The notes under the pieces were generated by a model. That model was not told the DNA's origin, searched no databases, and saw only the letters and a program-made list of their open reading frames with translations. A stretch of DNA of 64,000 bases, taken from the NCBI GenBank assembly GCA_017397725.1, contig JAFQIA010000008.1, positions 1 through 64,000 of the forward strand, given 5' to 3'. The translations under genes were made by a program, and so were the position numbers. This DNA is from Clostridia bacterium (GTDB taxonomy: Bacteria; Bacillota; Clostridia; Monoglobales; Monoglobaceae). Below are positions 5,113-37,161 of this stretch, piece by piece. The first letter of the stretch is position 1. The number at the start of each line of letters is the position of its first letter.

Positions 5113-5114
5113 TT

Positions 5115-7545: not shown

Positions 7546-7555
7546 GGAGAAAAAT

Positions 7556-8404: not shown

Positions 8405-8466
8405 AAGTATTAAGGAAATACCTCTTACAAAAAGTATTGATGTAATTAAATAGCATTAAGGAGAAA

Positions 8467-11699: not shown

Positions 11700-13409
11700 A
11701 TGAAAAAGAGGAAGCATTTCACAACGATAAGCATGGCGCTTGTGGGGCTGATGCTTGCGCAGAATGTTGTTATGGCGGCACCTGTTGTACAGAGAGAGGA
11801 TATTACTTACAAAAGCGGCGTGGTATCCGTGCCTGTCAGTACAGAGAGCAAGGAAGCAATCACCTATCAGGTGTATACGGGGAACGCGCCCGCGAAAAGC
11901 ACCATCAAAGGATTTGGCGAGGAATATCTTGAACCTGACAAGAGCAAGCTTTTTTTGGAGTTTGAGCTTGAGGAAACCGGAAACTACAATCTCAGAATTT
12001 CGGATGACACGGGAATCCTTGTCATTGACAACCTTCTTTACGCAAAGAAAAGTGAGCGGATGGCGTTTGTAGGTGCTGTTACAGGCGCACTTGCCATAGG
12101 AACCCCGACACCGGAGAATCTGGATGCAGCAATCGATACCGCAGCTACTGCACTTCACAACCTGATTGTTACGCAGGCTAACGAAAAGAGCGCAACCACC
12201 GTCGGCGTGAATGTTGTAGACTACCAAGGCTACACTCCTCAGGTTCAGAAGGAGATTTGTATTGAGGTTGTCAAACGTGCCGCAAATGAAACCCTGACAG
12301 AAGACGCCCTCTGCGACCATTATCAGGAGGTAGAGTCACTTGTAAGAATCAATAGTAGTACCGAAGCGGACGGAATGAAAACCGTCGAGCGCCTGAATCT
12401 TGACTTTGAAGGCATGAAGTTTGAGGATATTGCTGATGCTGAAAAGCAAGCGTGGCTCAAAAGGAATGTGGTAAAAAATAAAACCTACGCCACAATGGAT
12501 GAGATTCAGATCGGTTACAACAGAGCAAATGCCCTTTATTCCATAGACACTGCAAAGATTACCAATGTAGAAGGGTTGGTTAAAGGTTACGCAACACTTT
12601 TAGGGATTGCAACAGATAACCGATACACCGCTTATGTTGCGGCAGCAAATCCAACTATCAATGGTGCGTTGGTGGAAGGCTTTGCAGTAACCAAACCAGA
12701 AACGCCGGAAGAACTTCTTGTTGCATTGGCAAATGCGGTTGCGACACCGCCGGCAGGCGGCGGTGGCGGTGGTGGCGCCATGGGCGGCGGAACCATAAAG
12801 CAGGATTTTGCAATCACCGAAAACCAGAACACGAATCAGGAAGAACCTGAGCAAGTCGTACAGGCTACTTCAAAATTCAAGGATGTGCCAAAAACCCATT
12901 GGGCATATTCCGCAGTAGAGGAAATGCAGAGGGAAGGAATCATCTCTGGTTATGGGGATGGAACATTCCTGCCGGACCAGACAGTAAAACGTGAGGAATT
13001 TGTCAAGATGATTGTTGCGGCGTTTGGGTTTGAAAGCAAAACCGCATCCAGCTATTTCCATGACGTGTTTGACAGCGACTGGTTCTATCCTTACATCAGC
13101 GCCGCTTTTGAAAAAGGTATTGTCAAAGGTGACCAACTTGGATTGTTCGGTGTAAATACAGGAATCACACGAGAGGATGCAACGGTGATTGCATCAAGAG
13201 TATTGAATCTTGCAGGAAAATCTACCGAAGCAACCAGAACCTATGCAAACTTTGGTGACCAAGGGGCGATTTCTGATTATGCAAGAGAAGCGGTGAAAGA
13301 ACTCTATTGTATGGGAAGAATCAACGGCACCGACAACGGCAAGTTTGAGCCGCAACGGTTCTGTACCAGAGCAGAAGCGGCAATGATCATTTACAATATT
13401 TCAAGATAG
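11700..13409 (+). CDS. S-layer homology (SLH) domain surface protein
   Basis: Secreted, wall-attached protein of 569 residues. A signal peptide (MKKRKHF start, hydrophobic core, cut near VVMAAP) is followed by about 340 residues I cannot assign, then a flexible glycine run (seven Gly, AMGGG), an acidic-polar linker, and three C-terminal SLH units beginning FKDVPKTHWAYSAVEEMQ, FHDVFDSDWFYPYISAAF and FGDQGAISDYAREAVKEL. SLH domains bind pyruvylated secondary wall polymer. An ATG at 11670 is also in frame with its own AGGA, but the ATG at 11700 gives a normal signal peptide. First gene of the large locus; it may anchor or scaffold the binding protein and hydrolases encoded behind it, which have no anchor of their own. 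Confidence 0.88.
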   Translation: MKKRKHFTTISMALVGLMLAQNVVMAAPVVQREDITYKSGVVSVPVSTESKEAITYQVYTGNAPAKSTIKGFGEEYLEPDKSKLFLEFELEETGNYNLRISDDTGILVIDNLLYAKKSERMAFVGAVTGALAIGTPTPENLDAAIDTAATALHNLIVTQANEKSATTVGVNVVDYQGYTPQVQKEICIEVVKRAANETLTEDALCDHYQEVESLVRINSSTEADGMKTVERLNLDFEGMKFEDIADAEKQAWLKRNVVKNKTYATMDEIQIGYNRANALYSIDTAKITNVEGLVKGYATLLGIATDNRYTAYVAAANPTINGALVEGFAVTKPETPEELLVALANAVATPPAGGGGGGGAMGGGTIKQDFAITENQNTNQEEPEQVVQATSKFKDVPKTHWAYSAVEEMQREGIISGYGDGTFLPDQTVKREEFVKMIVAAFGFESKTASSYFHDVFDSDWFYPYISAAFEKGIVKGDQLGLFGVNTGITREDATVIASRVLNLAGKSTEATRTYANFGDQGAISDYAREAVKELYCMGRINGTDNGKFEPQRFCTRAEAAMIIYNISR

Positions 13410-13419
13410 GAGGGATAAG

Positions 13420-16026
13420 ATGTTAAAGAGAACACTATGTATGCTCATTTCATTGTCTATGATTTTGGGGATGATTTGTGTCTATGCGTCGCCGGATGTG
13501 CCTTCGATGGATGAGACCAAGCTGTCTGTTTTAAAGGGGCTCGACATTGTAAACGGCTATGAAAGCGAAACGAAAATGCTTGACAAAATGAGTAAAAGCA
13601 CCTTCATCAACTTCCTTCTTAATATGATGTACGGAGGAAGATTTCAGGCAGGCTACGACGAGGTTGCGCTACAGATGGCGGCAGACTTGAAAATTATTGA
13701 TAACGCGGCGTCGGTTTCGCCAGCTGACACTTTGAAGGGTGAAGAAGCTATCAAAATGGCAATGTGTCTTTTGGGTTATCGTGACCTCTGTCTGCTATCG
13801 GGAGGTTATCCTTATGGATTTCGGGTAAAAGCGGACCAGATTGATTTGACCAAGGGCCTCAGTATCAAAGATGAGATGAGCAATGCAGAGGCATATAAGC
13901 TTTTGTATAACACTATGAATGTGGGAATTGCTGACATTGATGCAATTGTGGTCCATGGCGATAAATATGCCAATTACTATACCCAGTACGAGGATGTTAC
14001 TATACTGAACATTTATCGAAATATCTATAAAGTCGAGGGTATTGTGGATGCCAATATGACAACCGGTTTGTATGAAACTGCCGGCACATCGGACAACTGC
14101 ATCAAGATTGATGGCACACAGTACCGTGACCCTGACAATCTGTTGTTTGATGCGGTGGGTATGAAAGTTCGTGCTTTTGTACATAAAGAGGAGTCGGGAC
14201 TTCACACCTTGGTTTATGCAGAATCCCATGAACATACCCACATAACAGAGTTCAAAACGGAAAATATATCTTATATTTCTTCAGATATAAGAAAAATTGA
14301 GTATTATCCTGAGGACAATGCAAAGGGAAGCAAACGGGCAAACATCAAAGCTTCGGTTTCCTTGCTTTACAACGGCACAGTTTACAGTAACTATACCGCG
14401 GCGGATTTTCAGACGAAAAGCGGAATTGTAACCTTGATTGATAATAATGACGATAATACGATTGACGTTATCAGACTGGATGTATACAAGAATATGCTTG
14501 TTTCCTCGGTATCGGCATCCAGCGAGGTAATTAACAACGAGTACACCAAAGATGCAAATGTATTGAGAAAGCTGGAACTTAAGAATTATGAGGGCACCGG
14601 CGATGTGGTGAAGTTCTTTATGGACGGCAAGGTAGCGGCTTTTGAAGATGTAATGCCGGGCGATGTACTGAGCGTGTTTGAATCCAAGGGCACAGGTGCC
14701 AAAAGCGTGATTGTTCATATCACCAGAAATGCACCGATCATTGATGTAACAAGCTGTAATACCAAAGCGGAGGAAATCACAGCAGGAGATGTTACCTACA
14801 AGTTTTCAGATACCTACAAAGCGGCAAAGACCGCAGGTGAAGATTTTGCACAGGCAATCTCTGCCGGCAAAAAATATCAGGTTTATCTGGATATGGACGA
14901 TAAGATTGTTGCCGCAAAGTTATACAATGACTCTGGTCTTAGTTATGGGTATCTCAAAGCAATCGCTGTCATACCCGGGACATTCAAATCTGACTACGCA
15001 GTAAAGTTGTTCGGTGATGACGGAAAGTGGAGAGAACTTTACTTTAAAGAAAAGGTGAAGGTGGGTAGCAGTGCCGGTGCAGAAATATTGACCGCACAGG
15101 TGGCAGCGACCAGAATGCAGGCAGCCTTCGTTGGTGATGTTATCGGTTATACACTGGATAAAGAAGGTAAAATCAATCGTATTGAATTACCGGTCCCCAT
15201 TTCCGGCAACCTGCTTGACAAGTCTGCGGTCCCAAACAGCGATGACCGACTGATTAAAACAGCAACCAATCAAAAAACCTATTATTACAACAACACTTCT
15301 TTTGAAAGCCAGCATTATATGACTGCGGACACTAAGGTTATTTTCATTCCTTCGGCAGAACCTGATAATGAAGACTTGTATGATATAGGAAACAATTATT
15401 CATTTGTGCGGGAGACGGTGACCTACACCGGTTATGGCTGTGATGAATTTGGATTTTTGGATTTGGTATTGGTAGAGCGGAACAGCGAACAGAGCAAAAA
15501 GGTGGGAAGCCAGCTATACTTCATTCGTGATTTCGGTTTTTCCCTTGACAGCGAGGGAAATTCTCATCCTGAGATTACCATTGCGTCATCTACATATTAC
15601 GGACTTTCCTTGCCTCTTGAAAATGCATTCCTTCTTGCCAACATCAAGCAAGGTGATATTGTGAGACTTCATGTCAACGCATCAGGATTTGTGGACCGGA
15701 TTGACCATGTGTTCGATATAGCTCCTGCCGGTGCCACAACCAGAGAAGAAATTCTTGTTGGTGCCATCACCGGCGACATTAACAGCGGAGCGGGACAGGT
15801 CAAGGGCTTCTTGAGAAAAGCCGATTTTACAAACGAAAGAATGCTGATTGAAAGCGATCGTTTGCAGGCATTAAAGGTTTCCAAGACAGTTCCGGTTCTG
15901 ATTTATGATGCGAGACTGCGCAAGGTGCTGTCGGGTACCGTCTATGATTTGAATATTGACGATTATGTGGTTGTTCAGATTTCCGATGCAAAAGTAACCG
16001 GTATCTATGTGGTTCGGGAACTGTAA
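13420..16026 (+). CDS. Large secreted protein with degenerate SLH-like N-terminus, function unknown
   Basis: 868 residues with a clear signal peptide (hydrophobic core MLISLSMILGMICV, cut near YASP). Residues 30-170 look like degenerate SLH units: LSVLKGLDIVNGY, then STFINFLLNMM, AADLKIIDNA and SNAEAYKLLYNTMNVGI, without the usual TRAE or WA signatures. The remaining 700 residues are beta-rich with repeated short segments of the type GDVLSVFE, GDVIGYTLDKEGKINRIELP, GDIVRLHVN and DDYVVVQISD, each like a small barrel turn. No enzyme motif seen. It starts 10 bp after the SLH gene behind AGGAGGG, so the two are made together. I infer an extracellular structural or assembly partner of the SLH protein. 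Confidence 0.7.
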   Translation: MLKRTLCMLISLSMILGMICVYASPDVPSMDETKLSVLKGLDIVNGYESETKMLDKMSKSTFINFLLNMMYGGRFQAGYDEVALQMAADLKIIDNAASVSPADTLKGEEAIKMAMCLLGYRDLCLLSGGYPYGFRVKADQIDLTKGLSIKDEMSNAEAYKLLYNTMNVGIADIDAIVVHGDKYANYYTQYEDVTILNIYRNIYKVEGIVDANMTTGLYETAGTSDNCIKIDGTQYRDPDNLLFDAVGMKVRAFVHKEESGLHTLVYAESHEHTHITEFKTENISYISSDIRKIEYYPEDNAKGSKRANIKASVSLLYNGTVYSNYTAADFQTKSGIVTLIDNNDDNTIDVIRLDVYKNMLVSSVSASSEVINNEYTKDANVLRKLELKNYEGTGDVVKFFMDGKVAAFEDVMPGDVLSVFESKGTGAKSVIVHITRNAPIIDVTSCNTKAEEITAGDVTYKFSDTYKAAKTAGEDFAQAISAGKKYQVYLDMDDKIVAAKLYNDSGLSYGYLKAIAVIPGTFKSDYAVKLFGDDGKWRELYFKEKVKVGSSAGAEILTAQVAATRMQAAFVGDVIGYTLDKEGKINRIELPVPISGNLLDKSAVPNSDDRLIKTATNQKTYYYNNTSFESQHYMTADTKVIFIPSAEPDNEDLYDIGNNYSFVRETVTYTGYGCDEFGFLDLVLVERNSEQSKKVGSQLYFIRDFGFSLDSEGNSHPEITIASSTYYGLSLPLENAFLLANIKQGDIVRLHVNASGFVDRIDHVFDIAPAGATTREEILVGAITGDINSGAGQVKGFLRKADFTNERMLIESDRLQALKVSKTVPVLIYDARLRKVLSGTVYDLNIDDYVVVQISDAKVTGIYVVREL

Positions 16027-16093
16027 AGATATTTGAAAAAATTTGAACGGTTGTAAAACCGGCGAATAAAAAATATATAAGGAGATTTTAATT

Positions 16094-18976
16094 ATGAAAA
16101 CAAATGTCAAAAAATTATTTTCGATGCTGCTTGCAATGGCAATGATTCTTGGCACCATGTCCTCGGTAAGCATTTTCGCTGAGGAAAACCAGATCGAAGG
16201 TCTCTATGTAGAGGCTACAGGTTCCAGCACGGTGACTTATTCCAATGCAAAAGCTTATAGCGGCAGCCGCTCTATCGTCGTCGACGCAAAGGGCAACTAT
16301 GTTGGTTTGGGCGATCCGGTAGCGGATTTCCAGATGGACCCTTCCAAAGCTTACGGTCTGGAATTCTATATCTATGTAGATTCCTGGACCTCCGGCAAAA
16401 TTGAGCTGAAACCTACCGGCAATGATAACAACACCTATCCCACTGTGTATAGTGCGGCGTTGGAGCACGGCGGTGCAGGTCTTTACCTCAACGGAACCAA
16501 CAAGGCGCGTTGGGGATTGGAAAAAATAGAATCCGGTGAAAAAGCCGGTTGGTACAGAGTATGGAACACCACCGCCATCAACAGCGAAGACCATGATTTC
16601 AGCGATGTTGCAGGCTTCGGAAAAGGCCGTATGTGGTATTTTGATGGTACCATGAAGGTTTATCTTGACAATATCAAAGTTTTTGACTGGACCGGCTATA
16701 CCACAAGCCAGAACAGCGGTACCAGAGGCGAAAATCCTATCTTCACTCAGGATTTTGAGAAGAGTATCGTTGTTCCCACCCTCCCCAATGCAGAAGATTT
16801 GGATACCGAAGATATTGGATTGACTCTTGCAAACGGAGCTGGTTATACCAATACCGGTGCAGTTTATGGTATCACCGATGCGATTGCATATACCGGTGAA
16901 AAATCTCTTTATGTGGATTCTACCAACGGAAAGATTGGTCTGGGTAGCTGTGAGGATGACTTTGGTATGGTAAAAGGCACTGCTTACGGTATTAAATTCT
17001 CCATCTATGTGGCAGAAAACAGTTCCGGACTCCTACAACTTAGACCGCAAAACAGCCAAAACCAAACTTATCGTGCAATGTATTATACCGAGATTGCGGG
17101 CACATCTGCAAATGGTTTGAGTGTGACCGGTGCTTGTAAGGACAGATGGACCGTCACCGAGGGTACCGGTGCTCAGGCGGGCTGGTACAGATTTGAATCC
17201 CTCTACCCGATTTATGTTGAGAACACCAGTATTGCAGACTTTATGCCTGGCCTAATGTTCAATTTTGAAGGCAAGTTCAAGGCGTTCCTGGATGATATTG
17301 AAATCTATAACTGGACCAAAGCACCGGCTACGGGAGATGGTTTTGCCAACGGTATGGGCGAGACTTTGATTGGTAGCAGAGATTTTGAAACAACTTTTGT
17401 TGCTCCTACCATTCCCGATGCAGAAGATTTGGATGTGAACAGTGTTGGGATGACTCTTGCAAGTGGTGAAGGCTATACCAATTCCGGTGCTATTTACGGT
17501 GTGACCGATGCGGCGGCTTATACCGGTGAAAAATCTCTTTATATTGATTCCACCAGCGGAAAGATTGGTGTAGGTAGCTGCGCAGACGATTTTGGTATGG
17601 AAAAAGGCGTTGCTTACGGCATGAAGTTCTCTATCTATATTGCAGAAAACAGTGAGGGACTTCTGCAGGTTAGACCACAAAACAACCAAAACCAAACTTA
17701 TCGTTCAATGTATTATACCGAGATTGCGGGCACATCCGAAGATGGTTTGAGCGTGACCGGCACTTGTGCAAACAGATGGACCATCACCGAGGGCACCGGT
17801 GAGCAGACAGGCTGGTACAGATTTGAATCGCTCTATCCGATTTTTGTCGAGAACACTGACATTGCTGCGTTTACGCCCGGTTTGATGTTCAACTTTGAAG
17901 GCAAGTTCAAGGCGTTCCTGGATGATATTGAAATTTACAACTGGACCAAAGCACCGGCTACCGGAGACGGTTTTGCCAACGGTATGGGCGATACCCTGAT
18001 TGGAAGCAGAGATTTTGAAACTGTCATTGTGGAAGTGGAAAAACCCACCATTCCGGATGCAAGCACTTTGGATCTTGATAATGTGAATCTGAAGCTTAAC
18101 CCTGACTATTCCGGCTCCAAGGCAGTTTACGGTATTACCGATACATTTTCCTTCAAGGGTGAGAATTCCCTCTATGTGGATTCCACCGCAGGTTCTATCG
18201 GTCTGGGTAGCTGTGCAGACGACTTTGGTATGGTAGTGGGTACGCCCTATGGTATGAAGTTCTCTATCTATATTGTAGAGAATAGCGAGGGCAAGCTCCA
18301 GATTAAGCCTCAGAATAGTGCAAACCAGACCTACAAGGGCAACCACATCATTGATATAACAGGTACATCCGAAACAAGCTTGACAGTTGCTGGTTACTGC
18401 AGCGACAGATGGACGGTAACGCCGGCGGCAGGTGCAAAAAAAGGTTGGTATACCTTTGAAACCAGATATCCGGTATTTGCCGAACCCAACAATGAGAGTG
18501 CAGGCTTTTTGGTAGGACAGATGTTCAACTTTGAAGGAAAGTTCAAAGCGTTCATCGATGATGTAGAAATCTACAACTGGGAAAAAGAAATTGCTACTGG
18601 CGATGCAATGAAGGACGGTATGGGTTCTACCTTGCTGAGTTCCAAAAACTTTGAATATTCCAAGGGCTTTGTCGGAAAATTCGTGAAGTCTGTGGCGGGC
18701 AACAATGTAACCGTTAGTGTTGATATCAGAAACTGTGATAAGGACAACTACACTGCACAGCTGATTCTGGGCGTATACAGCGGTAACAGACTGGACGGAG
18801 AGCCTGTTATGACTGCGGTTACCGATATTGCAAAGGTAGCCGAAGGCGGTGCAGTTACTACCTTATCCGAAACCATCACGGTACCTCAGGGCAAGACCTT
18901 GAAAATCTTCCTGTGGGATAGCATTGACGGAATGAGACCGATTAAGAGAAGCGAAACCTTTACGATAGGACAATAA
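16094..18976 (+). CDS. Secreted multi-module protein with four tandem carbohydrate-binding-like repeats
   Basis: 960 residues. Signal peptide at 1-29 (cut near IFAEE). Four beta-sandwich-like modules of about 208-212 residues follow. Each has a YTGEKSLYVDS-type strand, a GSC.DDFGM turn, a GWYRFES strand and a closing FEGKFKAFLDDIEIYNW strand, a layout reminiscent of CBM4/9/22-like sandwiches. The first module is the most divergent, the middle two nearly identical. The last 100 residues form a different C-terminal domain (VTVSVDIRN, ending LKIFLWDSIDGMRPI) also seen in clostridial secreted lyases. No catalytic motif, so a polysaccharide-binding protein is the best guess. It lies between the SLH pair and the two GH-A enzymes. 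Confidence 0.8.
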   Translation: MKTNVKKLFSMLLAMAMILGTMSSVSIFAEENQIEGLYVEATGSSTVTYSNAKAYSGSRSIVVDAKGNYVGLGDPVADFQMDPSKAYGLEFYIYVDSWTSGKIELKPTGNDNNTYPTVYSAALEHGGAGLYLNGTNKARWGLEKIESGEKAGWYRVWNTTAINSEDHDFSDVAGFGKGRMWYFDGTMKVYLDNIKVFDWTGYTTSQNSGTRGENPIFTQDFEKSIVVPTLPNAEDLDTEDIGLTLANGAGYTNTGAVYGITDAIAYTGEKSLYVDSTNGKIGLGSCEDDFGMVKGTAYGIKFSIYVAENSSGLLQLRPQNSQNQTYRAMYYTEIAGTSANGLSVTGACKDRWTVTEGTGAQAGWYRFESLYPIYVENTSIADFMPGLMFNFEGKFKAFLDDIEIYNWTKAPATGDGFANGMGETLIGSRDFETTFVAPTIPDAEDLDVNSVGMTLASGEGYTNSGAIYGVTDAAAYTGEKSLYIDSTSGKIGVGSCADDFGMEKGVAYGMKFSIYIAENSEGLLQVRPQNNQNQTYRSMYYTEIAGTSEDGLSVTGTCANRWTITEGTGEQTGWYRFESLYPIFVENTDIAAFTPGLMFNFEGKFKAFLDDIEIYNWTKAPATGDGFANGMGDTLIGSRDFETVIVEVEKPTIPDASTLDLDNVNLKLNPDYSGSKAVYGITDTFSFKGENSLYVDSTAGSIGLGSCADDFGMVVGTPYGMKFSIYIVENSEGKLQIKPQNSANQTYKGNHIIDITGTSETSLTVAGYCSDRWTVTPAAGAKKGWYTFETRYPVFAEPNNESAGFLVGQMFNFEGKFKAFIDDVEIYNWEKEIATGDAMKDGMGSTLLSSKNFEYSKGFVGKFVKSVAGNNVTVSVDIRNCDKDNYTAQLILGVYSGNRLDGEPVMTAVTDIAKVAEGGAVTTLSETITVPQGKTLKIFLWDSIDGMRPIKRSETFTIGQ
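16200..18655 (+). repeat. Four tandem in-frame coding repeats, period 624-636 bp
   Basis: Equivalent points fall at 16646, 17270, 17900 and 18536 (the codon pair before the last strand of each module), giving periods of 624, 630 and 636 bp. Copies 2 and 3 are nearly the same over long stretches, for example GGCAAGTTCAAGGCGTTCCT in both, so the array has expanded or been homogenised recently, while copies 1 and 4 have drifted. Confidence 0.85.
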
Positions 18977-18978
18977 TT

Positions 18979-21879: not shown

Positions 21880-21924
21880 AGGTATCAAAAAGGGTGAAAT
21901 TGAAAGACAGAGAGGAAGGTTCGG

Positions 21925-26007: not shown

Positions 26008-26021
26008 CATTTGACAGGCGA

Positions 26022-26058: not shown

Positions 26059-26105
26059 GGAATACAATATTGATTCAGGCAAATTATGATAGAGGGAAAG
26101 AAAAT

Positions 26106-28352: not shown

Positions 28353-28377
28353 AGAGCTATGGATAGGAGTGAAGGCA

Positions 28378-29094
28378 ATGAAGATTTATTTCTTGGGAAC
28401 CTGCCACGGGGCACAGGAAAAAGGACGTTTTTTAACCTGTACGGCGCTGGAAGTAGACGGAAAGATGTATCTCATTGATGCAGGAGCACCCTTTGTGTAT
28501 CTGCTGAAAAATATGGATATTATCCCTCGCGAAAAGTTGGAAACGGCATTTATTACCCATATGCACGATGACCATGCAATGCATGTGTTTTCCTGTGTGT
28601 TCCACTGCAAAAATGCCCTTTATGTCCCTGAAGAATCAGACATAGAAGGCATGAAGAATTTAATCTGGTTCTATCATTGCGAGTGGGCATATGAGCATGG
28701 GAAACCTTGTGAAATTAAAAGTGTTTCTGACGGTGCGTTTTATGATGACGGAACCATCAAGGTTACAGCGATTCCAACAAAGCATCTGGCACGGGGAAAG
28801 TCCTTTGCCTATATGATTGAAGCAGAAGGAAAACGTATTCTCTTTTCCGGAGATTTATCGGATGACTTCAGTGACTACCCGCAGATTACCGAAGAATTGG
28901 ATTTTGACGCTGTGATCTGTGAATTGACCCATTTCAGCGTAGAAAACGCAATTCCTAAATTCAACAATACCCGTACCAAAAGAATTCTGTTCAATCATGT
29001 GCGGGACGACAAGGTTGCGCTTTTGAAGAAAAATCAAGAAAAGCTGAAACGGGAGTATTATATTACCAATGACGGCGACATCATAGAAGTTTAA
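28378..29094 (+). CDS. MBL-fold metallo-hydrolase
   Basis: 238 residues with the metallo-beta-lactamase fold. Metal motif THMHDDHAMH near residues 61-70 is the classic HxHxDH; further ligands are the His in IPTKHLA, Asp in FSGDLSDD, and the His in LFNHVRDD. This set resembles the RNase Z/phosphodiesterase-like branch more than lactamases. A GTG at 28369 is in frame, but the ATG at 28378 has better spacing from ATAGGAG. It lies between GH65 and the transporter genes; its substrate is unknown, possibly a sugar phosphodiester or lactone formed in the pathway (inference only). Confidence 0.85.
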   Translation: MKIYFLGTCHGAQEKGRFLTCTALEVDGKMYLIDAGAPFVYLLKNMDIIPREKLETAFITHMHDDHAMHVFSCVFHCKNALYVPEESDIEGMKNLIWFYHCEWAYEHGKPCEIKSVSDGAFYDDGTIKVTAIPTKHLARGKSFAYMIEAEGKRILFSGDLSDDFSDYPQITEELDFDAVICELTHFSVENAIPKFNNTRTKRILFNHVRDDKVALLKKNQEKLKREYYITNDGDIIEV

Positions 29095-29134
29095 TATCGG
29101 TAGCTTACGAGTGGAGAATTGGAGGGGATTTTGT

Positions 29135-30070
29135 ATGAAACTAAGACAGGTTTTACAACAAAACAAGAGTATGTCGCAAACTAGACGCAGAATGAGACGA
29201 CGGAACAACATTGATGCATGGGTTTTGATGTTGCCGATGGTTATTATCTTGTATCTCTTTGTATGGCGGCCCACTGTTCTGGGCGGCGTATGGTCGTTTT
29301 TCAGAATGAGCGGATATTCAGTCGGTGAGTTTTGCGGTATTGACAATTATAAAATGGTTTTGTCACACACACAATTTATGCCGATGCTGTGGAACACCAT
29401 CCAGTACGTTTTGTGGTCATTGCTGATTGGATTTCTGCCGCCGCTTGTGATTGCAATTATGGTGGATGAAATTGTTCATTTTAAGAGCGGGTTTCGGGTG
29501 CTGATTTATCTACCCACCGTCATACCGGGCATTGCGGCAATGCTGATGTGGTATTTTATGTACTATCCGGATCAGACTGGTCTTTTGAATATGCTTCTTT
29601 CCAAAATAGGAGTTGACCCTTATCTCTGGCTGAATGACCCGAAGTTTGCAATCATTGGTATTGTTATTTATTCCACTTGGAAAGCGTTTCCGGGAACTAT
29701 GCTGTTGTACTTTGCAGCACTGCAGGGCGTTTCCTCTGAACTTTATGAGGCGGCATTGATTGACGGGGCAGGTTCCTTTAAGAGGTTCTGGCATGTTACC
29801 AGACCTGGCATAGAGGGGTTGTTATTGTTGAATGTGGTACGCCAGATTATCAGCGTGTTCCAAGTTATGGAAGCACCGATGGCGATGACCGGAGGCGGAC
29901 CCAACGGGGCATCTACACCGCTATCTTTGCAGCTTTACCGATACGGATTCAACAGTGGAGGCAAGGGAACGGGTCAGGCGATGGCACTTGGTGTGATAAT
30001 ATTCGTGATTTTGATTGTGTTTACCATATTCTATTTCTGGCTTAACCGCAAGGTAGAAAACAGACATTAA
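29135..30070 (+). CDS. Sugar ABC transporter permease, MalF/UgpA type
   Basis: Complete 311-residue CUT1 permease. A basic N-terminus with MRRR is followed by a first membrane helix (about 30-50) and five more; the EAA loop reads EAALIDGAGSFKRFWHVTRP. GGAGGGG sets the ATG at 29135; a GTG at 29111 would add eight residues and lies on the ribosome site. It pairs with 30089-31000 and the binding protein at 31035, and is the close paralogue of the truncated gene at the left window edge. Confidence 0.93.
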   Translation: MKLRQVLQQNKSMSQTRRRMRRRNNIDAWVLMLPMVIILYLFVWRPTVLGGVWSFFRMSGYSVGEFCGIDNYKMVLSHTQFMPMLWNTIQYVLWSLLIGFLPPLVIAIMVDEIVHFKSGFRVLIYLPTVIPGIAAMLMWYFMYYPDQTGLLNMLLSKIGVDPYLWLNDPKFAIIGIVIYSTWKAFPGTMLLYFAALQGVSSELYEAALIDGAGSFKRFWHVTRPGIEGLLLLNVVRQIISVFQVMEAPMAMTGGGPNGASTPLSLQLYRYGFNSGGKGTGQAMALGVIIFVILIVFTIFYFWLNRKVENRH

Positions 30071-30088
30071 GGGGGGAGGGTAAGTCGT

Positions 30089-31000
30089 ATGAAAAAGTTT
30101 AGTGAAAAACAGACCGGAATTTTGAGCTTATCTGACTTGAAGACGGTAAAAGGCAAGCTGTTATATTGGTTTTTCTTTGCGGTTCTTTGTTTGACCTGTG
30201 TAATCACTGTTTTCCCTGCCATATGGACGGTGCTTACGGCTTTCAAGGATACGCAGGAGATTTATGAAGCGTTCAGTATTTTTCCTCGGGATTTATCCTG
30301 GAACAATATCGTAAGAAGAGTATCCGAATCTTGGAATATTCTTCAGCTTTCGGATGAAATTGTAAATACCATTGTGCTGTCATTGGGTAATCTGGTATTC
30401 AAAATTGTTGTGTGCGGGTTTGGTGGTTATGTGCTGTCAAAACTCAAACCAACCGGAACCAAGCTGATTTTTACACTTGTTGTTTGGACAATGATGATGC
30501 CCAGCCAGATTCGAATGGTCCCCAACTATATCTCTTGGCTGCATTTCCCCTTTGCAACCGATAACGGGATGGGAATCAACCTTCTTGACACCTATTGGCC
30601 TATGTGGTTGGGTTCTGGTGGAGATACGTTTGCAGTACTGTTGTTTAAGAATGCATTTGATGCTTTGTCGGATTCCTATGTAGAGGCTGCAAAGCTGGAT
30701 GGATGCAGTAACTACGGCGTATTCTTCAAGATTATGCTACCCCTTGCAATGCCCATCATTATCTATGAGTCCATTGGTGTTTTGAGTGGCGCATGGTCGG
30801 ATTTCTTTACGCCTCTTCTGGTTCTTGATAAGAATGTGGTTGTTCCTTTGAGAATATACAGACTGCAGGGCGATTCCAGCACACAGATGAATACATACTT
30901 TATGGCGCTTGTCTTTGCAAGTATTCCGCCGTTCTTAATATTTGCAATATTCCAGAAACGAATTATGGGAGGCATTAACATCGGCGGCGTAAAAGGGTAA
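30089..31000 (+). CDS. Sugar ABC transporter permease, MalG/UgpE type
   Basis: 303 residues, exactly the length of its paralogue at 635-1546. Six membrane helices expected; EAA loop EAAKLDGCSNYGVFFKIMLP is the same in both copies. The ATG follows GGGGGGAGGG with about 9 bp spacing. It forms the translocation channel with the 29135 protein. As no ATPase gene is in the window, a shared ATPase must power both permease pairs. Confidence 0.93.
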   Translation: MKKFSEKQTGILSLSDLKTVKGKLLYWFFFAVLCLTCVITVFPAIWTVLTAFKDTQEIYEAFSIFPRDLSWNNIVRRVSESWNILQLSDEIVNTIVLSLGNLVFKIVVCGFGGYVLSKLKPTGTKLIFTLVVWTMMMPSQIRMVPNYISWLHFPFATDNGMGINLLDTYWPMWLGSGGDTFAVLLFKNAFDALSDSYVEAAKLDGCSNYGVFFKIMLPLAMPIIIYESIGVLSGAWSDFFTPLLVLDKNVVVPLRIYRLQGDSSTQMNTYFMALVFASIPPFLIFAIFQKRIMGGINIGGVKG

Positions 31001-31034
31001 AAAATAAAATTTTATATAAAGGAGTGTAAAAATT

Positions 31035-32450
31035 ATGTTTAAGACGAAGAAAAAATCCATTTGGAAGGCTGTTGCAACAGTGACAGCACTGGTATTGATT
31101 TGCGGTTGTTTTGTAGGGTGCGGCAAAACTGTATCAGATAAAGATGAGCAAGGCAGAACTATGATTTCTGTCGGTTCCTGGCCCAGCAGCGAAGGTGAAT
31201 CTCTGGATAAAATGAATGCGAGAAAAGACCGTTTTGAAGCAGCGAATCCGGATGTTGTCATTACCCCTGATACTTGGGCATTTGAAAGACAGACCTTCTA
31301 TTCCAAGGCAGCAGGCGGTCAGCTTCCCACCGTTTATATGGCAGGATTTACGGAAATCCCCGAAATCATCGGCGCAAAGTATTCTGCGGATTTGACCAAT
31401 GTTTTGAAAAAGCGCGGCTATGACGGAAAGTTTAATGATGCCATCGTAGAGGTTTTGAGCAATGATGGCAAGATGATGGCGTTCCCTACCATGGCATATA
31501 TCCTTGGTCTGGCTTATAATGTAGAAATGTTCGAAGCTGCAGGTCTTATGGAGGCGGACGGAACCCCAAAACAGCCGAAGGATTGGAATGAGGTTGTTGA
31601 GTTTGCGGTTAAAATTAAAGAGGCAACCGGCAAGCCTGGTCTGGTTCTTCCCACTGCAGGCAACAGCGGCGGTTGGATCTTTACCTCCATTGCATGGTCG
31701 TTCGGTGTGGACTTTATGGAAAAGAATGCAGAAGGCAGATGGCAGGCAACCTTTGATACCCCTGAGGCAGTTGAGGCGTTGCAGTTTATCAAGGATTTGA
31801 AATGGAAGTATGATGTTCTTCCGGCAAACACCCTGGTAAATGGTGAGGAATGGTACAAACAGTTTGCAACCGGCAATGGCGCAATGACCATTACCGCAGG
31901 AGACTACCCCAGACGTGTGATTAAGTATGGTATGAGCGCGGATAAAGTTGGTATGATGGCAACTCCTGCAGGACCCAAGCGTCATGTAACTTTGCTTGGC
32001 GGCGAGGTGCTTTGCGTGAAGAGAAATGCTACTGAGGATCAGATTGATGCAGCAATCCGTTGGATTGAAACCGCATACAACTACAGCCTGACCGATGAGT
32101 ATAAAAAGAATGCAGAAGCATCCATCGAAAGTCAGCTCAACGAAGGACGCCACGTTGGTATCAAGAGTATGAGTCCGTGGAATGTGAATACTGAAGCGTT
32201 GGCATGGTATCATGATTATATTGATTCCAAGACCAATGCGAATATCAATCATGTAAGACTGTATAATGAGTTTGTTGCAAACTGCCCGGCAGATGTTCAG
32301 CCTGAAGAGCCTGTATGTGCACAAGAACTTTACGCAATTTTGGATGGATGTATTCAGGAAGTGCTGACAAACAAGAATGCAGACTGTGCAACCGTAATCT
32401 CCAATGCAAATTCAGATTTTCAGGTAAATTACCTTAACAACTTGTTATAA
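31035..32450 (+). CDS. Extracellular sugar-binding lipoprotein (SBP family 1)
   Basis: 471 residues. Positively charged start (KTKKK), hydrophobic core and a lipobox with Cys25 (ICGC) or Cys29 (FVGC) as the lipidated residue. The mature part has the family-1 pattern: VGSWPSSEGESLDKMNAR near the N-terminus, then FERQTFYSKAAGGQLPTVYM and the aromatic-rich C-lobe (NVNTEALAWYHDYID). It delivers oligosaccharide to the permeases encoded just upstream. A strong hairpin follows the gene, which would protect its mRNA and raise its level over the downstream enzymes. Confidence 0.93.
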   Translation: MFKTKKKSIWKAVATVTALVLICGCFVGCGKTVSDKDEQGRTMISVGSWPSSEGESLDKMNARKDRFEAANPDVVITPDTWAFERQTFYSKAAGGQLPTVYMAGFTEIPEIIGAKYSADLTNVLKKRGYDGKFNDAIVEVLSNDGKMMAFPTMAYILGLAYNVEMFEAAGLMEADGTPKQPKDWNEVVEFAVKIKEATGKPGLVLPTAGNSGGWIFTSIAWSFGVDFMEKNAEGRWQATFDTPEAVEALQFIKDLKWKYDVLPANTLVNGEEWYKQFATGNGAMTITAGDYPRRVIKYGMSADKVGMMATPAGPKRHVTLLGGEVLCVKRNATEDQIDAAIRWIETAYNYSLTDEYKKNAEASIESQLNEGRHVGIKSMSPWNVNTEALAWYHDYIDSKTNANINHVRLYNEFVANCPADVQPEEPVCAQELYAILDGCIQEVLTNKNADCATVISNANSDFQVNYLNNLL

Positions 32451-32464
32451 ACCATACGATGAAT

Positions 32465-32501
32465 GATTTTGTCCTCAAAGAGTTTCTTTGAGGACAAAAT
32501 C
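32465..32501 (+). promoter_or_regulatory. 16-bp perfect hairpin after the binding-protein gene
   Basis: GATTTTGTCCTCAAAG - AGTTT - CTTTGAGGACAAAATC, 14 bp after the stop codon, with only CTATTT behind it. Such structures behind solute-binding protein genes commonly stabilise the upstream message and reduce read-through; partial termination is possible. Confidence 0.78.
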
Positions 32502-32527
32502 CTATTTCAGCAAAAGGAAGGCGGAGA

Positions 32528-33172
32528 ATGATGACGAAAAAATATAAAGCGGTTATTTTTGATTTGGATGGCGTAATTGTATCTACAGATGAATGTCATT
32601 ATGAGGCGTGGAAAATGCTTGCCGATGAGGAAGGCATTTATTTTGATCGGGAAATCAATCAAAGGCTCAGGGGCGTTAGTCGTATGGAGTCTTTGGAAAT
32701 CGTTTTGGAGCGTGCAACAAAAGAATATACCGAAGCTGAAAAGCTGGAAATGGCAACACGGAAAAACGGATATTATGTGGAAAAAATAAAAAGCCTTGAT
32801 AAAACTGCAATTTTAGCCGGCGCGTTGGAATTCGTAAGTCTGGCAAAGAATGCTGGATTAAAAGTTGCAATTGGTTCTTCCAGCAAGAACACAATGGCAA
32901 TTCTTAAACAGACGGGATGCGAGACTCTTTTTGATGCCATTGCAGATGGAAATGATATTAAAAACTCCAAACCGGCACCGGATGTATTTTTAGTTGCCGC
33001 GGAAAAGCTTCAAATAGCACCAACAGATTGTATGGTAGTGGAAGATGCAGAGGCGGGCGTGGATGCAGCGCTGGCGGCAGGAATGGATGTGCTGGCAGTA
33101 GGTTTTGCAAGCGCCTATGCAAAGGCTACATACCGTGCAAAATCTTTGGATGAAGTACTTGTAAAGAAATAG
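32528..33172 (+). CDS. pgmB: Beta-phosphoglucomutase
   Basis: HAD-superfamily mutase, 214 residues, usual length. Converts beta-glucose-1-phosphate to glucose-6-phosphate. Motif I DLDGVI carries the nucleophile Asp and the general acid Asp; the cap has the HYEAW and RLRGVSRMESL stretches typical of PgmB; motif II is IGSSSKN, motif III NSKPAPDVF, motif IV VEDAEAGVDAA. A second ATG three bases later is an equally possible start. Its link with GH65 in the same locus gives the standard phosphorolytic pair. Confidence 0.93.
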   Translation: MMTKKYKAVIFDLDGVIVSTDECHYEAWKMLADEEGIYFDREINQRLRGVSRMESLEIVLERATKEYTEAEKLEMATRKNGYYVEKIKSLDKTAILAGALEFVSLAKNAGLKVAIGSSSKNTMAILKQTGCETLFDAIADGNDIKNSKPAPDVFLVAAEKLQIAPTDCMVVEDAEAGVDAALAAGMDVLAVGFASAYAKATYRAKSLDEVLVKK

Positions 33173-33173
33173 T

Positions 33174-34004
33174 TTGGAGGGGATTACGATTACTGTTATC
33201 CAGAATTTACATACACATACAAATTATTGTGATGGCGCAGATACACCGGAAGAGGTGGTCCTTTGCGCCATAGAAAAAGGATTTTCGTCTATAGGATTTT
33301 CAGGACATTCCTTTACCCCGTATTCCAAAGAATTTTCTAAAATCGGAGATCACACCGAGGAGTATAAAAAGGATATCAAAAGCCTGAAGGAGAAATACAA
33401 AGACCGGATTGAAATTTATTTAGGTCTCGAAGTAGATATGTTTTCAGAACCTGATTTGTCAGGATATGATTACCTCATTGGTTCGGTGCACTACCTAAAA
33501 AAGGATGGGGTTTTCATTGATTTTGACAAAGGCGCCAAAGAGGTGGAGGAGATTATTCGTACCTGCTTTCACGGAGATGGAATGGCGTATGCCAAAGCAT
33601 ATTACAAAACCTTGGCACAGCTTCCTGTGTACGGAAATTTTGATATTATCGGCCACTTTGACATCATTACCAAGCATTGCGACAGCAGAAATTTTTTTGA
33701 CATAACATCAAAAGAATATTGCGATGCTGCATTTGAAGCTGCCGCAGCCCTAAAGGGAAAAATCCCGTTTTTTGAGGTGAATACGGGGGCCATCGCAAGA
33801 GGCTATCGAAAGACACCATATCCATCTGTTGCACTTATCAAGGAAATGAAACGGCTGGGATTTGGTGCGGTGATTACCGCGGATTGTCACGACAAAAGAA
33901 AGCTTGACTATAGGTTCCTTGAGGCGACAGAACTTTTGAGAGAATGTGGATATAAGGAAAAATATATTCTAACGAAAAACGGATTTGAAGCAGTTCCGCT
34001 TTAG
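33174..34004 (+). CDS. PHP-domain phosphoesterase, histidinol-phosphatase-like
   Basis: Metal-dependent phosphoesterase of about 270 residues. PHP motifs: NLHTHTNYCDG at the very N-terminus, GFSGHS, LGLEVD, IGSVHY, IGHFDII and ITADCHDK. This resembles the HisK branch, but no his genes are near, so a sugar-phosphate or related substrate is more likely. The start is odd: no ATG or GTG precedes the first motif. TTG at 33174 overlaps the ribosome site; GGAGGGG at 33176-33182 points instead to ACG (33186) or ATT (33189). It is 1 bp from the pgmB stop if TTG is used. Confidence 0.82.
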   Translation: MEGITITVIQNLHTHTNYCDGADTPEEVVLCAIEKGFSSIGFSGHSFTPYSKEFSKIGDHTEEYKKDIKSLKEKYKDRIEIYLGLEVDMFSEPDLSGYDYLIGSVHYLKKDGVFIDFDKGAKEVEEIIRTCFHGDGMAYAKAYYKTLAQLPVYGNFDIIGHFDIITKHCDSRNFFDITSKEYCDAAFEAAAALKGKIPFFEVNTGAIARGYRKTPYPSVALIKEMKRLGFGAVITADCHDKRKLDYRFLEATELLRECGYKEKYILTKNGFEAVPL

Positions 34005-34017
34005 AATGGAGATAGAT

Positions 34018-35094
34018 ATGAAATATTTAACGGCAATCGTGTTGATTTTTTCAGTATTGGGGGCATTAGATCGGATTTTTGGAGGGTGGCTTGGAATCGG
34101 CAAGGAATTTGATAAAGCCTTCCATCTGTTGGGAGCAATGGCACTTTCTATGATTGGAATGATTGTGATTTCGCCGTTTCTTGCGGAATTGATGAGACCG
34201 GTATCGATGTTTATGGAAAGCGTATTTCATATGGATGCATCGATTATACCGGCATCCTTGTTTGCTAATGATATGGGAGGCGCTGCCTTGGCATCCGAGA
34301 TGGCAGCGGAACCCAAGCTGGGACTTTATAATGCACTTGTTGTTTCTTCTATGATGGGATGTACCATTTCTTTTACGCTACCCTTTGCCCTTGGTGTGGT
34401 TGAGAAAGAGTATCATCGGGATCTGATGTCCGGTCTTTTGTGCGGCATTGTTACCATTCCCATCGGTTGCCTGATAGCAGGATTCCTTTGTGGATTGCAA
34501 GTGGTTCCGTTGATTGTCAACCTGATACCATTACTGCTGTTTTCGGGGTTCATTGCTGTAGGTTTGATTATGGCTCCGGAGTTGAGCATAAAGATATTTA
34601 AGGGGTTTGGCGTATTGATTACGGCAATCATCACTGTGGGACTTTCTTTGGGTATCATAAGATTTCTTACAGGATTTGAGGTGATTCAGGGGCTTGCTAC
34701 TATTGAAGAAGGTGCGGCGATTTGCCTTAATGCGGCAGTTGTTTTGTCAGGGTCATTTCCCTTTGTATATGTTCTGACAAAGCTTCTCTCAAAACCGCTT
34801 AAAATCGTTGGTGGGAAAATAGGTATCAATGAAACATCGGTGGTGGGAATTATTTCGACGCTTGCATCAAGTGCGACAGCGTTTGGTATGATGGATAAGA
34901 TGGATAAAAAGGGCATTGTGGTAAATGCAGCATTTGCTGTTTCCGGAGCATTTGTTTTGGGGAGCCATTTGGCGTTCACTTTGGCTTTTAACAAAAGTTA
35001 TATACTTCCTGTTATTGTAGGGAAGCTTGTGGCGGGAATCGCTGCTGCTGTTCTTGCAGGAATCATATATAAGAAAATAAATAAGCAAAAGTAA
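34018..35094 (+). CDS. EutH-like ethanolamine permease
   Basis: 358 residues, strongly hydrophobic, about ten membrane helices. It matches the EutH family in the helix-helix pattern and in PASLFANDMGGAALA near residues 75-90 and the tail helix VVGKLVAGIAAAVLAG. EutH carries ethanolamine in enteric eut operons. Here there are no eutABC, cofactor or shell genes, so the carried molecule may differ. TGGAGAT sets the ATG at 34018; in-frame ATG at 34006 and TTG at 33985 lie upstream or inside the PHP gene. Placed between a phosphoesterase and a GH30. Confidence 0.82.
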   Translation: MKYLTAIVLIFSVLGALDRIFGGWLGIGKEFDKAFHLLGAMALSMIGMIVISPFLAELMRPVSMFMESVFHMDASIIPASLFANDMGGAALASEMAAEPKLGLYNALVVSSMMGCTISFTLPFALGVVEKEYHRDLMSGLLCGIVTIPIGCLIAGFLCGLQVVPLIVNLIPLLLFSGFIAVGLIMAPELSIKIFKGFGVLITAIITVGLSLGIIRFLTGFEVIQGLATIEEGAAICLNAAVVLSGSFPFVYVLTKLLSKPLKIVGGKIGINETSVVGIISTLASSATAFGMMDKMDKKGIVVNAAFAVSGAFVLGSHLAFTLAFNKSYILPVIVGKLVAGIAAAVLAGIIYKKINKQK

Positions 35095-35116
35095 TTGTAT
35101 GGTAGGAGGAAGTTGT

Positions 35117-36439
35117 ATGAATATAAAAGCAATAAAAACCGTATATGGGAAAAAACCGATGCAGGCGTGCGATGCAGTATCAGCTTGCGGCGATGTCGAA
35201 AGAGAAGGATCGCTTATTAGTATTTTTCCGGATATTGAATATCAGGAAATCAAAGGATTTGGAGGAGCGTTCACCGAAGCGGCTTCTAACACCTTGGAGC
35301 AACTGAGCAAAGAGAACCGAGAAACCATACTGAAGTTGTATTTTGATACCAAAGAGGGTATCGGGTACAATTTCGGTCGGGTACATATAAATAGCTGCGA
35401 TTTTTCTTTGGGGAACTATACCTATGTAGAGGAAGGGGATGAAACCCTTGCAACCTTTGACATAAGCAGAGAAGAAAAATCCGTGATTCCTATGATTCAG
35501 GATGCCAAGAAATACAATGAAATTGAATTATTTGCATCCCCTTGGAGCCCGCCGGCCTATATGAAAACCACAGGTCAGATGAATCGGGGCGGGAAATTGA
35601 AGCCGGAATATTTTGACCTGTGGGCATCTTACTATGTGAAATTCATCGAGGAATACAAGAAAAACGGCATTGATATTGGGATGATTTCGGTACAAAACGA
35701 GCCCAAGGCGGCGCAAACCTGGGATTCCTGTCTTTATACTGCAGAGGAGGAACGGGATTTTGTCAAAAATTATCTTGGTAAAAAGATGCAGGATATTGGC
35801 GTGAAAATCTTATTCTGGGATCACAACAAAGAAAGAGTTGTACAGCGAGCAAAGGTTATGCTTAATGATGCGGAGGCTGCAAAATATATCTATGGCATTG
35901 CAATGCATTGGTATAGCGGCGACCATTTTGAGCAGCTTGAAATGTTCCATAAGTTGTTCCCGCAAAAAGAGATTGTTTTCTCCGAGGGTTGTTATGAATA
36001 CAGTCTTGGAGAATCTGACACCGTAAAAATCGGAGAGAAATATGCCCACGATATGATTGGAAATTTCAACAACTACTGCAACATCTTCTGTGACTGGAAT
36101 CTGCTCCTGAATGAAAAGGGTGGCCCCAACCATGTGGGAAATTTCTGTGATGCGCCCATTATGGCGGACACGCAAAATGACAAGGTTTATATTCACGATT
36201 CTTACTATTACATCGGGCATTTCAGCAAATTTGTCCAAAAGGGTGCCAAGAGAATCGGAAGCAGCAAATGGACGGCGGATTTGGATACGGTTTCCTTCAA
36301 AAATCCTGACGGAAAAATAGTATCTGTGGTGTTGAATGCTACCGACCAAGAAAAATCGTTTTGTTTTGATCTTGAAGGAAAAATGCTGGAAACAAAACTG
36401 GAAGCACATTCGATTGCTACATATATTTTTGAAGTTTAG
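35117..36439 (+). CDS. GH30 family glycoside hydrolase, cytosolic
   Basis: 440 residues, no signal peptide. TIM barrel with side beta-domain, as in glucosylceramidase-type GH30 enzymes. Acid/base Glu195 in VQNEPKAAQTW and nucleophile Glu290 in VFSEGC; the N-terminal motif IKGFGGAFTEAA is diagnostic. The C-terminal beta-domain ends SIATYIF. AGGAGGA sets the ATG at 35117; ATG at 35099 is upstream of it. It would hydrolyse beta-linked glucose, xylose or fucose from imported oligosaccharides. It complements GH65: alpha-bonds by phosphorolysis, beta-bonds by hydrolysis. Confidence 0.93.
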   Translation: MNIKAIKTVYGKKPMQACDAVSACGDVEREGSLISIFPDIEYQEIKGFGGAFTEAASNTLEQLSKENRETILKLYFDTKEGIGYNFGRVHINSCDFSLGNYTYVEEGDETLATFDISREEKSVIPMIQDAKKYNEIELFASPWSPPAYMKTTGQMNRGGKLKPEYFDLWASYYVKFIEEYKKNGIDIGMISVQNEPKAAQTWDSCLYTAEEERDFVKNYLGKKMQDIGVKILFWDHNKERVVQRAKVMLNDAEAAKYIYGIAMHWYSGDHFEQLEMFHKLFPQKEIVFSEGCYEYSLGESDTVKIGEKYAHDMIGNFNNYCNIFCDWNLLLNEKGGPNHVGNFCDAPIMADTQNDKVYIHDSYYYIGHFSKFVQKGAKRIGSSKWTADLDTVSFKNPDGKIVSVVLNATDQEKSFCFDLEGKMLETKLEAHSIATYIFEV

Positions 36440-36483
36440 AGATCCATTCAAAAAGAATAGCGTTCATAAGGAGAGGTATTGTG

Positions 36484-37161
36484 ATGAACGAACAAGCAGT
36501 ATATATTCTTAGAATTATTTTAGCAGGTATTTGTGGAATCATCATAGGCATGGAGCGCAAGAACAGGTCTAAGGAGGCCGGCGTACGCACGCACTTTGTG
36601 GTTGCATGCGGTGCGGCACTGATGATGATTGTATCCAAATACGCATTCTTTGATGTCATACAAGGCAGTGTGTTTGGAAACGCCGAGGTGCGACTTGACC
36701 CCTCCCGTGTTTCCTCTACGATAGCCAGCGGGATTGGATTCCTTGGTGCAGGAATGATTTTTGTGCATAAAAATACCGTTACCGGATTGACAACAGCAGC
36801 GGGGATTTGGGCAACCTCAGGCGTTGGAATGGCAATTGGCGCAGGGATGTATGGCGTCGGCATCGGCGCAGCGATTGTTATTTTGATCGCACAGCTTATC
36901 TTGCATATGAATTTTAGCAGAAATAAGAATGTCAATGTTAAAATTTTAAGCGTGAAAGACGTAACGGAAAAAAATTTCCAGAGGGTTATTGCAAAAGAGT
37001 TTGATGAAAAAAACATAAGCATCTTAAATGTTTCTATTGATAATACTGATGAGAATAGCGGAAGAAGTTATATATTTAAAATTGAAATGCCAAATTCAAT
37101 CAATGAAGATGAAATTATTGATTTAATAAGTTATAAGAGCTCAATAAAGGCAATTCAATAA
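36484..37161 (+). CDS. MgtC/SapB family membrane protein
   Basis: 225 residues. Four to five membrane helices in residues 5-140 with the family motifs GIERK-like IIIGMERKNRSKEAGVRTH and GIGFLGAGMIF, LTTAAGIWATSGVGMAIG, then a soluble ACT-like C-terminus of about 80 residues. The family is linked to Mg2+ limitation and membrane energetics; the reaction is not settled. GTG at 36481 immediately before the ATG is also a possible start behind AAGGAGAGG. It lies 44 bp after GH30. Confidence 0.9.
   Translation: MNEQAVYILRIILAGICGIIIGMERKNRSKEAGVRTHFVVACGAALMMIVSKYAFFDVIQGSVFGNAEVRLDPSRVSSTIASGIGFLGAGMIFVHKNTVTGLTTAAGIWATSGVGMAIGAGMYGVGIGAAIVILIAQLILHMNFSRNKNVNVKILSVKDVTEKNFQRVIAKEFDEKNISILNVSIDNTDENSGRSYIFKIEMPNSINEDEIIDLISYKSSIKAIQ

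Follow-up and report, generated by a model that had tools for sequence, protein, structure and literature searches.

Background

In the SusC/SusD-type polysaccharide utilization loci (PULs) of Bacteroidetes, the same surface module recurs from locus to locus, accompanied by a regulator and by enzymes that vary. Gram-positive PULs (gpPULs) are defined by function, the minimum being a polysaccharide-degrading enzyme, a transport system and a transcriptional regulator in one locus, and those of Roseburia and E. rectale comprise enzymes, an ATP-binding cassette (ABC)-type importer and an AraC-type regulator per locus, with several substrate-specific loci per genome (PMC5320581). The xylan, beta-glucan and starch systems of Paenibacillus sp. 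JDR-2 combine S-layer homology (SLH) wall anchoring, CBM4_9/CBM9-type modules, ABC oligosaccharide import and intracellular finishing enzymes, with SLH, carbohydrate-binding module (CBM) and catalytic domain on one multimodular enzyme (PMC4765114). Here we analyze a locus within a 64,000-nucleotide stretch (the window) of a Clostridia bacterium of the family Monoglobaceae (assembly GCA_017397725.1, contig JAFQIA010000008.1), which is probably one instance of a modular Gram-positive glycan utilization system with a re-used five-gene surface foraging cassette.

The locus falls within the gpPUL definition (GHA1, GHA2, GH65 and GH30 as enzymes, a solute-binding protein with two permeases, and a divergent AraC gene), and resembles the Roseburia and E. 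rectale loci in the respects just listed; unlike them, it includes a recurrent module of an SLH protein, a degenerate SLH-fold partner (dSLH), a four-repeat protein (BP) and a GH-A pair, of which we found no mention in that work. From the JDR-2 systems, whose four features it shares, it differs in having separate genes for anchor, putative scaffold, BP and enzymes: Pfam finds no SLH domain on GHA1 or GHA2 of the window, whereas relatives include fused forms. Its likeness to SusC/SusD PULs is one of layout and role, not of membership, given the Gram-positive wall and ABC import; no TonB-dependent SusC porin or SusD homologue was among the Pfam matches of the window proteins, nor any cohesin or dockerin, the mark of a cellulosome, among those of the cassette proteins. 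The gpPUL type and the SLH-anchored glycosidase plus ABC system are thus known already, and what appears new is the recurring set of five genes, the SLH-fold partner without arginine and the pairing of GH-A enzymes. We found no description of these three, and no counterpart of dSLH, in the literature searched (weak evidence, with most subscription papers outside that search).

Results and discussion

The five-gene surface cassette

Our central finding is that the first five genes of the locus (SLH, dSLH, BP, GHA1 and GHA2) are a module repeated beside varying enzymes. We label comparison genomes G, their contigs C and retrieved loci L, each with a number; the window locus is contig C5 of its own genome. 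Searching with GHA1 brought up further homologues in the own genome, as well as others in G020, G031 and G034, and these occurred in pairs. The own genome holds three complete cassettes (C5, C26 and C20) and a fourth truncated by a contig end (C25), the genus mate G020 holds ten (those on C12 and C18 interrupted in GHA2 by contig ends), and G031 and G034 hold one each. Among 210 ordered comparisons between loci for each family, 208 to 210 gave a match for SLH, dSLH, GHA1 and GHA2, and 176 for BP, at identities of mostly 20-45% between non-orthologous loci. Related cassettes also occur in other orders (G079, G154, G162, G221, G361 and G363, and G101 with one GHA seen), and GHA2 relatives were present in 11 of the 391 genomes sampled from the class, the own genome included. 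Where the titles of Clostridia metagenome-assembled genomes (MAGs) name a source, it is mostly a deer or a water buffalo (colon or rectum).

The genes flanking the cassette change from locus to locus, with rhamnosidases among their products. In the window they encode GH65, PgmB and GH30; a GH38 alpha-mannosidase lies beside own C26 and several G020 cassettes, a sialidase-like BNR protein together with a GDSL esterase beside own C20, GDSL and L-fucose isomerase (FucI) beside G020 C13a, GH28 and GH78 beside the G034 cassette, a GH106-like enzyme at L078, and GH36-like and GH35 enzymes at L072. AraC-like genes adjoin most other cassettes, and homologues of the solute-binding protein (53-67% identity) stand beside most cassettes in the family. 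In one pair of loci, own C20 and G020 C13a, GHA2 is 78% identical but SLH, dSLH, BP and GHA1 only 42-46%: the enzyme has been kept, and the surface parts diverge fast.

Over 13 loci, the distance matrix of each of the five families correlates with those of the other four (Mantel r 0.61-0.95, p<=0.0044), and this holds without the two orthologues of the window locus, indicating that the five genes were duplicated and retained together, which by itself is no proof of protein contact.

Paired GH-A enzymes and the repeat protein

GHA1 and GHA2 are GH42-like clan GH-A enzymes and paralogues of one another. GHA1 has E387 as acid/base and E548 as nucleophile, GHA2 has E896 and E1050 as its catalytic residues, in conserved columns, and both glutamates are retained in 28 of 28 complete GHA enzymes, which rules out a pair of pseudo-enzymes. 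The best solved relative of GHA1 is 6ptm (3.4e-21, phmmer); PDB entry 6PTM agrees with BovGH167, which releases beta-neocarrabiose and is a distant relative of GH42 (PMC6923384). GHA1 shares the clan GH-A type catalytic residues with GH42 and BovGH167, but GHA2 is far larger, with CBM-like modules at its N-terminus, and some relatives are fused to SLH domains. The similarity of GHA1 to BovGH167 is distant, and implies no carrageenan substrate.

Fusions of this enzyme family to SLH were found in 16 proteins (from Paenibacillus, several other MAGs and one G020 locus), which is evidence that both functions belong together at the wall. Those of Paenibacillus (L080, L086, L094, L097, L100 and L108) measure about 1600-2070 residues, several lie near ABC importer and AraC-type genes, and by analogy they may be regarded as a counterpart of the cassette in a single protein.

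In a tree of 49 GHA proteins (midpoint root, weak deep nodes), separate GHA1 and GHA2 groups appear both in the clade of own C26, own C20 and most of G020 (supports 0.97 and 0.78) and in that of G034, G162, G361 and G363 (0.995 and 0.995), window-type GHA1 lies far from window-type GHA2, and the two G079 enzymes cluster together. The enzymes thus appear to have become paired on more than one occasion, a pattern that would be consistent with selection for having two of them adjacent. At L173 (G162 C37, 7499-10811) GHA1 is apparently split across two overlapping open reading frames (ORFs), possibly through a frameshift or an assembly error.

BP has repeats at residues 50-200, 241-430, 451-640 and 672-852, with a sub-threshold CBM4_9 match (E 2.7e-4), and is the most variable cassette protein between loci. 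Under one and the same repeat query, the window protein (16094-18976) yields four copies, its counterpart in L069 (6892-9123) three and that on G031 C13 (17325-20015) two.

An SLH protein and its arginine-less partner

The SLH protein consists of a beta-sandwich and helical N-part, a Gly-rich linker and three C-terminal SLH domains, whose model matches the Sap SLH structure 3pyw (TMt 0.84, Foldseek); Foldseek found no credible Protein Data Bank (PDB) match for the N-part. For dSLH, which the sequence-only reading had called a degenerate SLH protein, an AlphaFold (AF2) model (pLDDT 79.6, pTM 0.50) bears this out by fold: its N-end is an SLH trimer, matched by Foldseek to SpaA-SLH with probability 1.00 and TMt 0.52-0.67. 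The beta-rich body of about 700 residues gave only low-TM (~0.1) Foldseek matches to long beta proteins and no credible PDB match.

Both proteins thus resemble the SLH trimers of SpaA and Sap in fold, but they differ at the TRAE-type arginine, through which SpaA and Sap contact their pyruvylated wall ligand (PMC6081394). Across 15 loci the SLH protein keeps it at 45 of 45 positions, three per protein, and dSLH at 2 of 45. The first gene thereby has all the hallmarks of an SLH-domain protein (three PF00395 matches, invariant arginine and fold), whereas dSLH retains the fold alone, with no PF00395 match in 14 members. Because dSLH keeps the SLH fold without the wall-binding arginine, it is most likely a scaffold, with a re-purposed SLH fold, that is held by its partner.

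SLH and dSLH might instead be S-layer or envelope proteins that merely lie upstream of an ordinary secreted-enzyme and ABC operon, forming no complex while the enzymes diffuse away. All of the order's 51 genomes contain dSLH homologues, in most cases with no GHA, as this explanation would have it, and each genome usually has one of about 950-1000 residues with a divergent SLH-protein gene beside it, probably a housekeeping envelope pair, as a version of about 960 residues next to a divergent SLH gene looks to be; the missing wall anchor on GHA1 and GHA2 points the same way. We nevertheless consider this explanation unlikely, since SLH and dSLH of the cassette type stand apart as a high-scoring group and recur with the GHA pair in each cassette, since they co-diverge with GHA1 (r 0.84 and 0.93, respectively), and since GHA-SLH fusions exist. 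An SLH signal is detectable in 25 of 26 more distant dSLH relatives of the order, most of which adjoin an SLH gene where the flank is long enough.

Conserved gene order and sharing between orders

The sequence-only reading held that the order of genes matched no known locus, and that homologues that were always scattered would speak against a single system. When the order was sought in other genomes, AraC-SLH-dSLH-BP-GHA1-GHA2-GH65-MBL-permease-permease-SBP-PgmB-PHP-EutH-GH30 (SBP, solute-binding protein) was found gene for gene in a MAG from water-deer colon (L069, JAGATB010000005, treated as the same contig as G154 C11). The order is thus not unique but conserved elsewhere, and so the objection of scattered homologues falls. 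This conservation from AraC to GH30 exceeds chance. G031 has the same block without the ABC genes and PgmB, and on G020 C11 the cassette, GH65 and MBL are present, GH30, one permease and SBP lie beyond AraC on the other side, and PgmB, PHP and EutH are missing.

G154 is in the same class as the window genome but in another family (f22), outside its order. Identities to the window are 69% (AraC), 48% (SLH), 51% (dSLH), 60% (BP), 61% (GHA1) and 81% (GHA2), followed by 79% (GH65), 88% (MBL), 86% and 91% (permeases), 86% (SBP), 81% (PgmB), 71% (PHP), 68% (EutH) and 74% (GH30), indicating that the surface genes diverge fastest. The window locus is closer to G154 than to same-genus G020 (GHA2 81 versus 67%, GH65 79 versus 62%). 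SMC of the window genome, in comparison, is 44% identical to that of G154, 62% to that of the genus mate G019 and 57% to that of the family mate G034. Because the stretch from GHA2 to GH30 is 68-91% identical while SMC is 44% identical, the locus looks laterally mobile, and lateral transfer would be the simplest reading of the match. Misbinning is disfavored: aspS on the G154 locus contig is 75-77% identical to its own-family genomes and 64% to the window genome, and the aspS of the window genome is on the same contig (C5) as the window locus, so that both contigs seem native to their genomes.

This distribution also bears on whether the target is, instead of an external glycan, a wall polymer or S-layer glycan of the bacterium itself, which the locus would degrade or remodel. 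An importer with wall-anchored proteins and glycosidases next to it could serve to recycle such polymers, and the GHA enzymes have no known substrate. GHA1 homologues, however, occur in only 4 of 38 family genomes, with many copies in one species, and locus-specific catabolic enzymes and regulators, together with sharing of the whole locus across orders, fit scavenging better; we regard own-polymer turnover as highly improbable.

Cytosolic enzymes, accessory genes and substrate

GH65, PHP and GH30 do not look secreted, while all five leading proteins have signal-peptide-like hydrophobic N-termini and SBP has a lipobox. The best solved relative of GH65 is kojibiose phosphorylase 3wiq (5.8e-116, 392 bits), and glucosylgalactosylhydroxylysine glucosidase is a much weaker match (103 bits). 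The GH65 domains and a PgmB in the same operon are what is expected of a GH65 phosphorylase, so that phosphorolysis is predicted. The nearest solved relatives of GH30, which is conserved in G154, G031 and G020, are 2wnw and glucosylceramidases. Together these enzymes point to a target glycan that would contain an alpha-glucosyl unit and beta-linked sugars. The closest solved relatives lend no support to a GH65 of collagen-glycan type, nor to the alpha-glucosyl-galactose glycan suggested by the sequence-only reading.

MBL directly follows GH65 in all three orthologues (G154, G031 and G020), and an MBL homologue (46%) lies beside the G020 C13a cassette. PHP and EutH are a two-gene unit, present as a stand-alone pair with no glycan genes around it in G023 C32 (L156) and G043 C47 (L157), where it may act on a phosphorylated amine; the pair accompanies window-type loci without belonging to the five-gene cassette. 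Ethanolamine catabolism (eut) through EutH was considered and rejected: EutB was not found in the own genome (84% complete), no more than 5 of the order's 51 genomes have EutH, and PHP and EutH make up a pair independent of such a pathway.

One might still take all fifteen genes, EutH, PHP and MgtC included, as a single-purpose system for a glycan with alpha-glucosyl-galactose, and the order from AraC to GH30, with PHP and EutH, is indeed common to G154 and largely to G031. MgtC is not co-conserved, however, being on another contig in G154 and absent after GH30 in G031, and we reject it as a member; PHP-EutH stands alone elsewhere, G020 C11 does without PgmB, PHP and EutH, and GH65 is closest to kojibiose phosphorylase, all of which makes the fifteen-gene system scarcely credible. 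Of the proposal of one surface-to-cytosol glycan system led by an SLH protein, the conserved order upholds the core; the locus is nonetheless one instance of a re-used module, with MgtC outside it and PHP-EutH separable.

Locus layout and neighboring genes

Re-examination of the ORFs bears out fifteen co-directional genes with mostly short gaps, all on the + strand, which begin at 11670 rather than at 11700 and end at 37161 (Table 1). Successive intergenic distances are 10, 67, 2, 45, 62, 16, 16, 18, 34, 77, 1, -20, 4 and 41 nucleotides. Pfam and NCBIfam profile searches of the window proteins, together with the repeats, confirm the domains named beforehand (SLH, the four-repeat protein, the paralogous GH-A pair, GH65, PgmB, GH30, MBL, PHP, EutH and MgtC). 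The ABC importer that had been proposed is present as two permeases and SBP, with no ATPase gene in the fifteen-gene cluster. Promoter and terminator scans of the locus gave nothing informative.

Table 1. Genes of the locus and its divergent regulator, in window coordinates
Feature	Position	Strand	Evidence
AraC-type regulator, divergent from operon	10536-11381	-	HTH_18/HTH_AraC; same-place orthologues G154 69%, G031 64%, G020 C11 56%
Cassette gene 1: SLH protein, 579 aa	11670-13409	+	PF00395 128 bits, three C-terminal SLH
Cassette gene 2: dSLH, degenerate SLH-fold partner, ~700-aa beta-rich body	13420-16026	+	AlphaFold and Foldseek; no Pfam match
Cassette gene 3: BP, secreted four-repeat protein, probable glycan binder, 960 aa	16094-18976	+	Repeats; sub-threshold CBM4_9
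Cassette gene 4: GHA1, secreted GH42/GH167-like clan GH-A enzyme	18979-21879	+	PF02449 83 bits, over cut-off
Cassette gene 5: GHA2, larger GHA1 paralogue, N-terminal CBM4_9/CBM9-like modules	21925-26007	+	PF02449, PF06452
GH65 alpha-glucoside phosphorylase, probably cytosolic	26070-28352	+	Three GH65 Pfam domains (N, m, C)
MBL-fold hydrolase	28369-29094	+	PF12706/PF00753
ABC sugar permease 1, UgpA-like	29111-30070	+	PF00528; 86% in G154
ABC sugar permease 2	30089-31000	+	PF00528; 91% in G154
SBP, lipoprotein solute-binding protein	31035-32450	+	PF01547; lipobox
PgmB, beta-phosphoglucomutase	32528-33172	+	TIGR01990 237.7 bits vs cut-off 189.4
PHP-family phosphoesterase (HisJ family)	33174-34004	+	TIGR01856 over cut-off
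EutH-family permease	33985-35094	+	PF04346 365 bits
GH30 glycosidase, without signal peptide, last conserved operon gene	35099-36439	+	PF02055 272 bits
MgtC, co-directional, judged outside system	36481-37161	+	PF02308

A separate sugar operon lies just upstream (3715-10497, +; L-fucose-isomerase-like, FGGY kinase, DUF4432, class II aldolase and GH36-type alpha-galactosidase), with a PocR-AraC regulator beside it (2768-3649, -), and a second sugar ABC permease set occupies 7-1546 (+). The permease at 635 is 78% identical to the one adjoining the G020 C11 cassette, closely similar to the 30089 permease (77%).

Proposed mechanism

We propose that the five-gene surface cassette would be constant hardware and that the regulator and cytosolic enzymes would set the substrate. 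The SLH protein would dock onto a pyruvylated wall polymer through its three intact SLH domains and hold dSLH as a scaffold; BP would capture the glycan, and GHA1 and GHA2, which here have no SLH of their own, would cleave it near the surface. SBP and the permeases would import the pieces, with an ATPase that must be encoded elsewhere. Inside the cell, GH65 is predicted to phosphorolyze an alpha-glucoside to beta-glucose-1-phosphate, PgmB to convert this to glucose-6-phosphate, and GH30 to remove a beta-linked sugar; the divergent AraC protein may regulate the whole.

Several observations weigh against this scheme or parts of it. Shared duplication history alone would yield the agreement between distance matrices, without physical interaction, and unequal selection on genes could inflate the contrast between SMC and the locus. 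Loss of the arginine is no proof of lost wall binding, one SLH of SpaA being Arg-less too (PMC6081394), and the case for carbohydrate binding by BP consists of sub-threshold CBM4_9 matches. Some cassettes have no permeases alongside, and three in G020 have extra or re-ordered genes: C20 and C27 contain additional genes inside the cassette, and at C13c a GHA2-like gene, itself with SLH domains, is placed ahead of SLH.

Going further, we suggest tentatively, and with less than even confidence, that SLH and dSLH are a two-protein wall scaffold, the counterpart in role to SusC/SusD, which holds a substrate-tuned BP and a GH-A pair (such pairs having originated on more than one occasion through independent duplications), and that this unit has multiplied within genomes and passed from order to order among hindgut Clostridia as a plug-in module.

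Conclusion

The SusC/SusD pair is a signature by which Bacteroidetes loci are recognized and compared, and we found no comparable signature for Gram-positive gut bacteria in the literature searched. A recurrent five-gene signature would allow such loci to be called automatically in Clostridia, and the variable enzymes would then suggest candidate substrates for as many as ten uncharacterized surface loci in a genome. The finding also suggests that the SLH fold, having lost the arginine that binds the wall, has been put to new use as a scaffold, and it singles out a branch of clan GH-A enzymes that has duplicated repeatedly as candidates for activity tests. The cassette is apparently a standard kit with which bacteria in the gut of grazing animals harvest different complex sugars.

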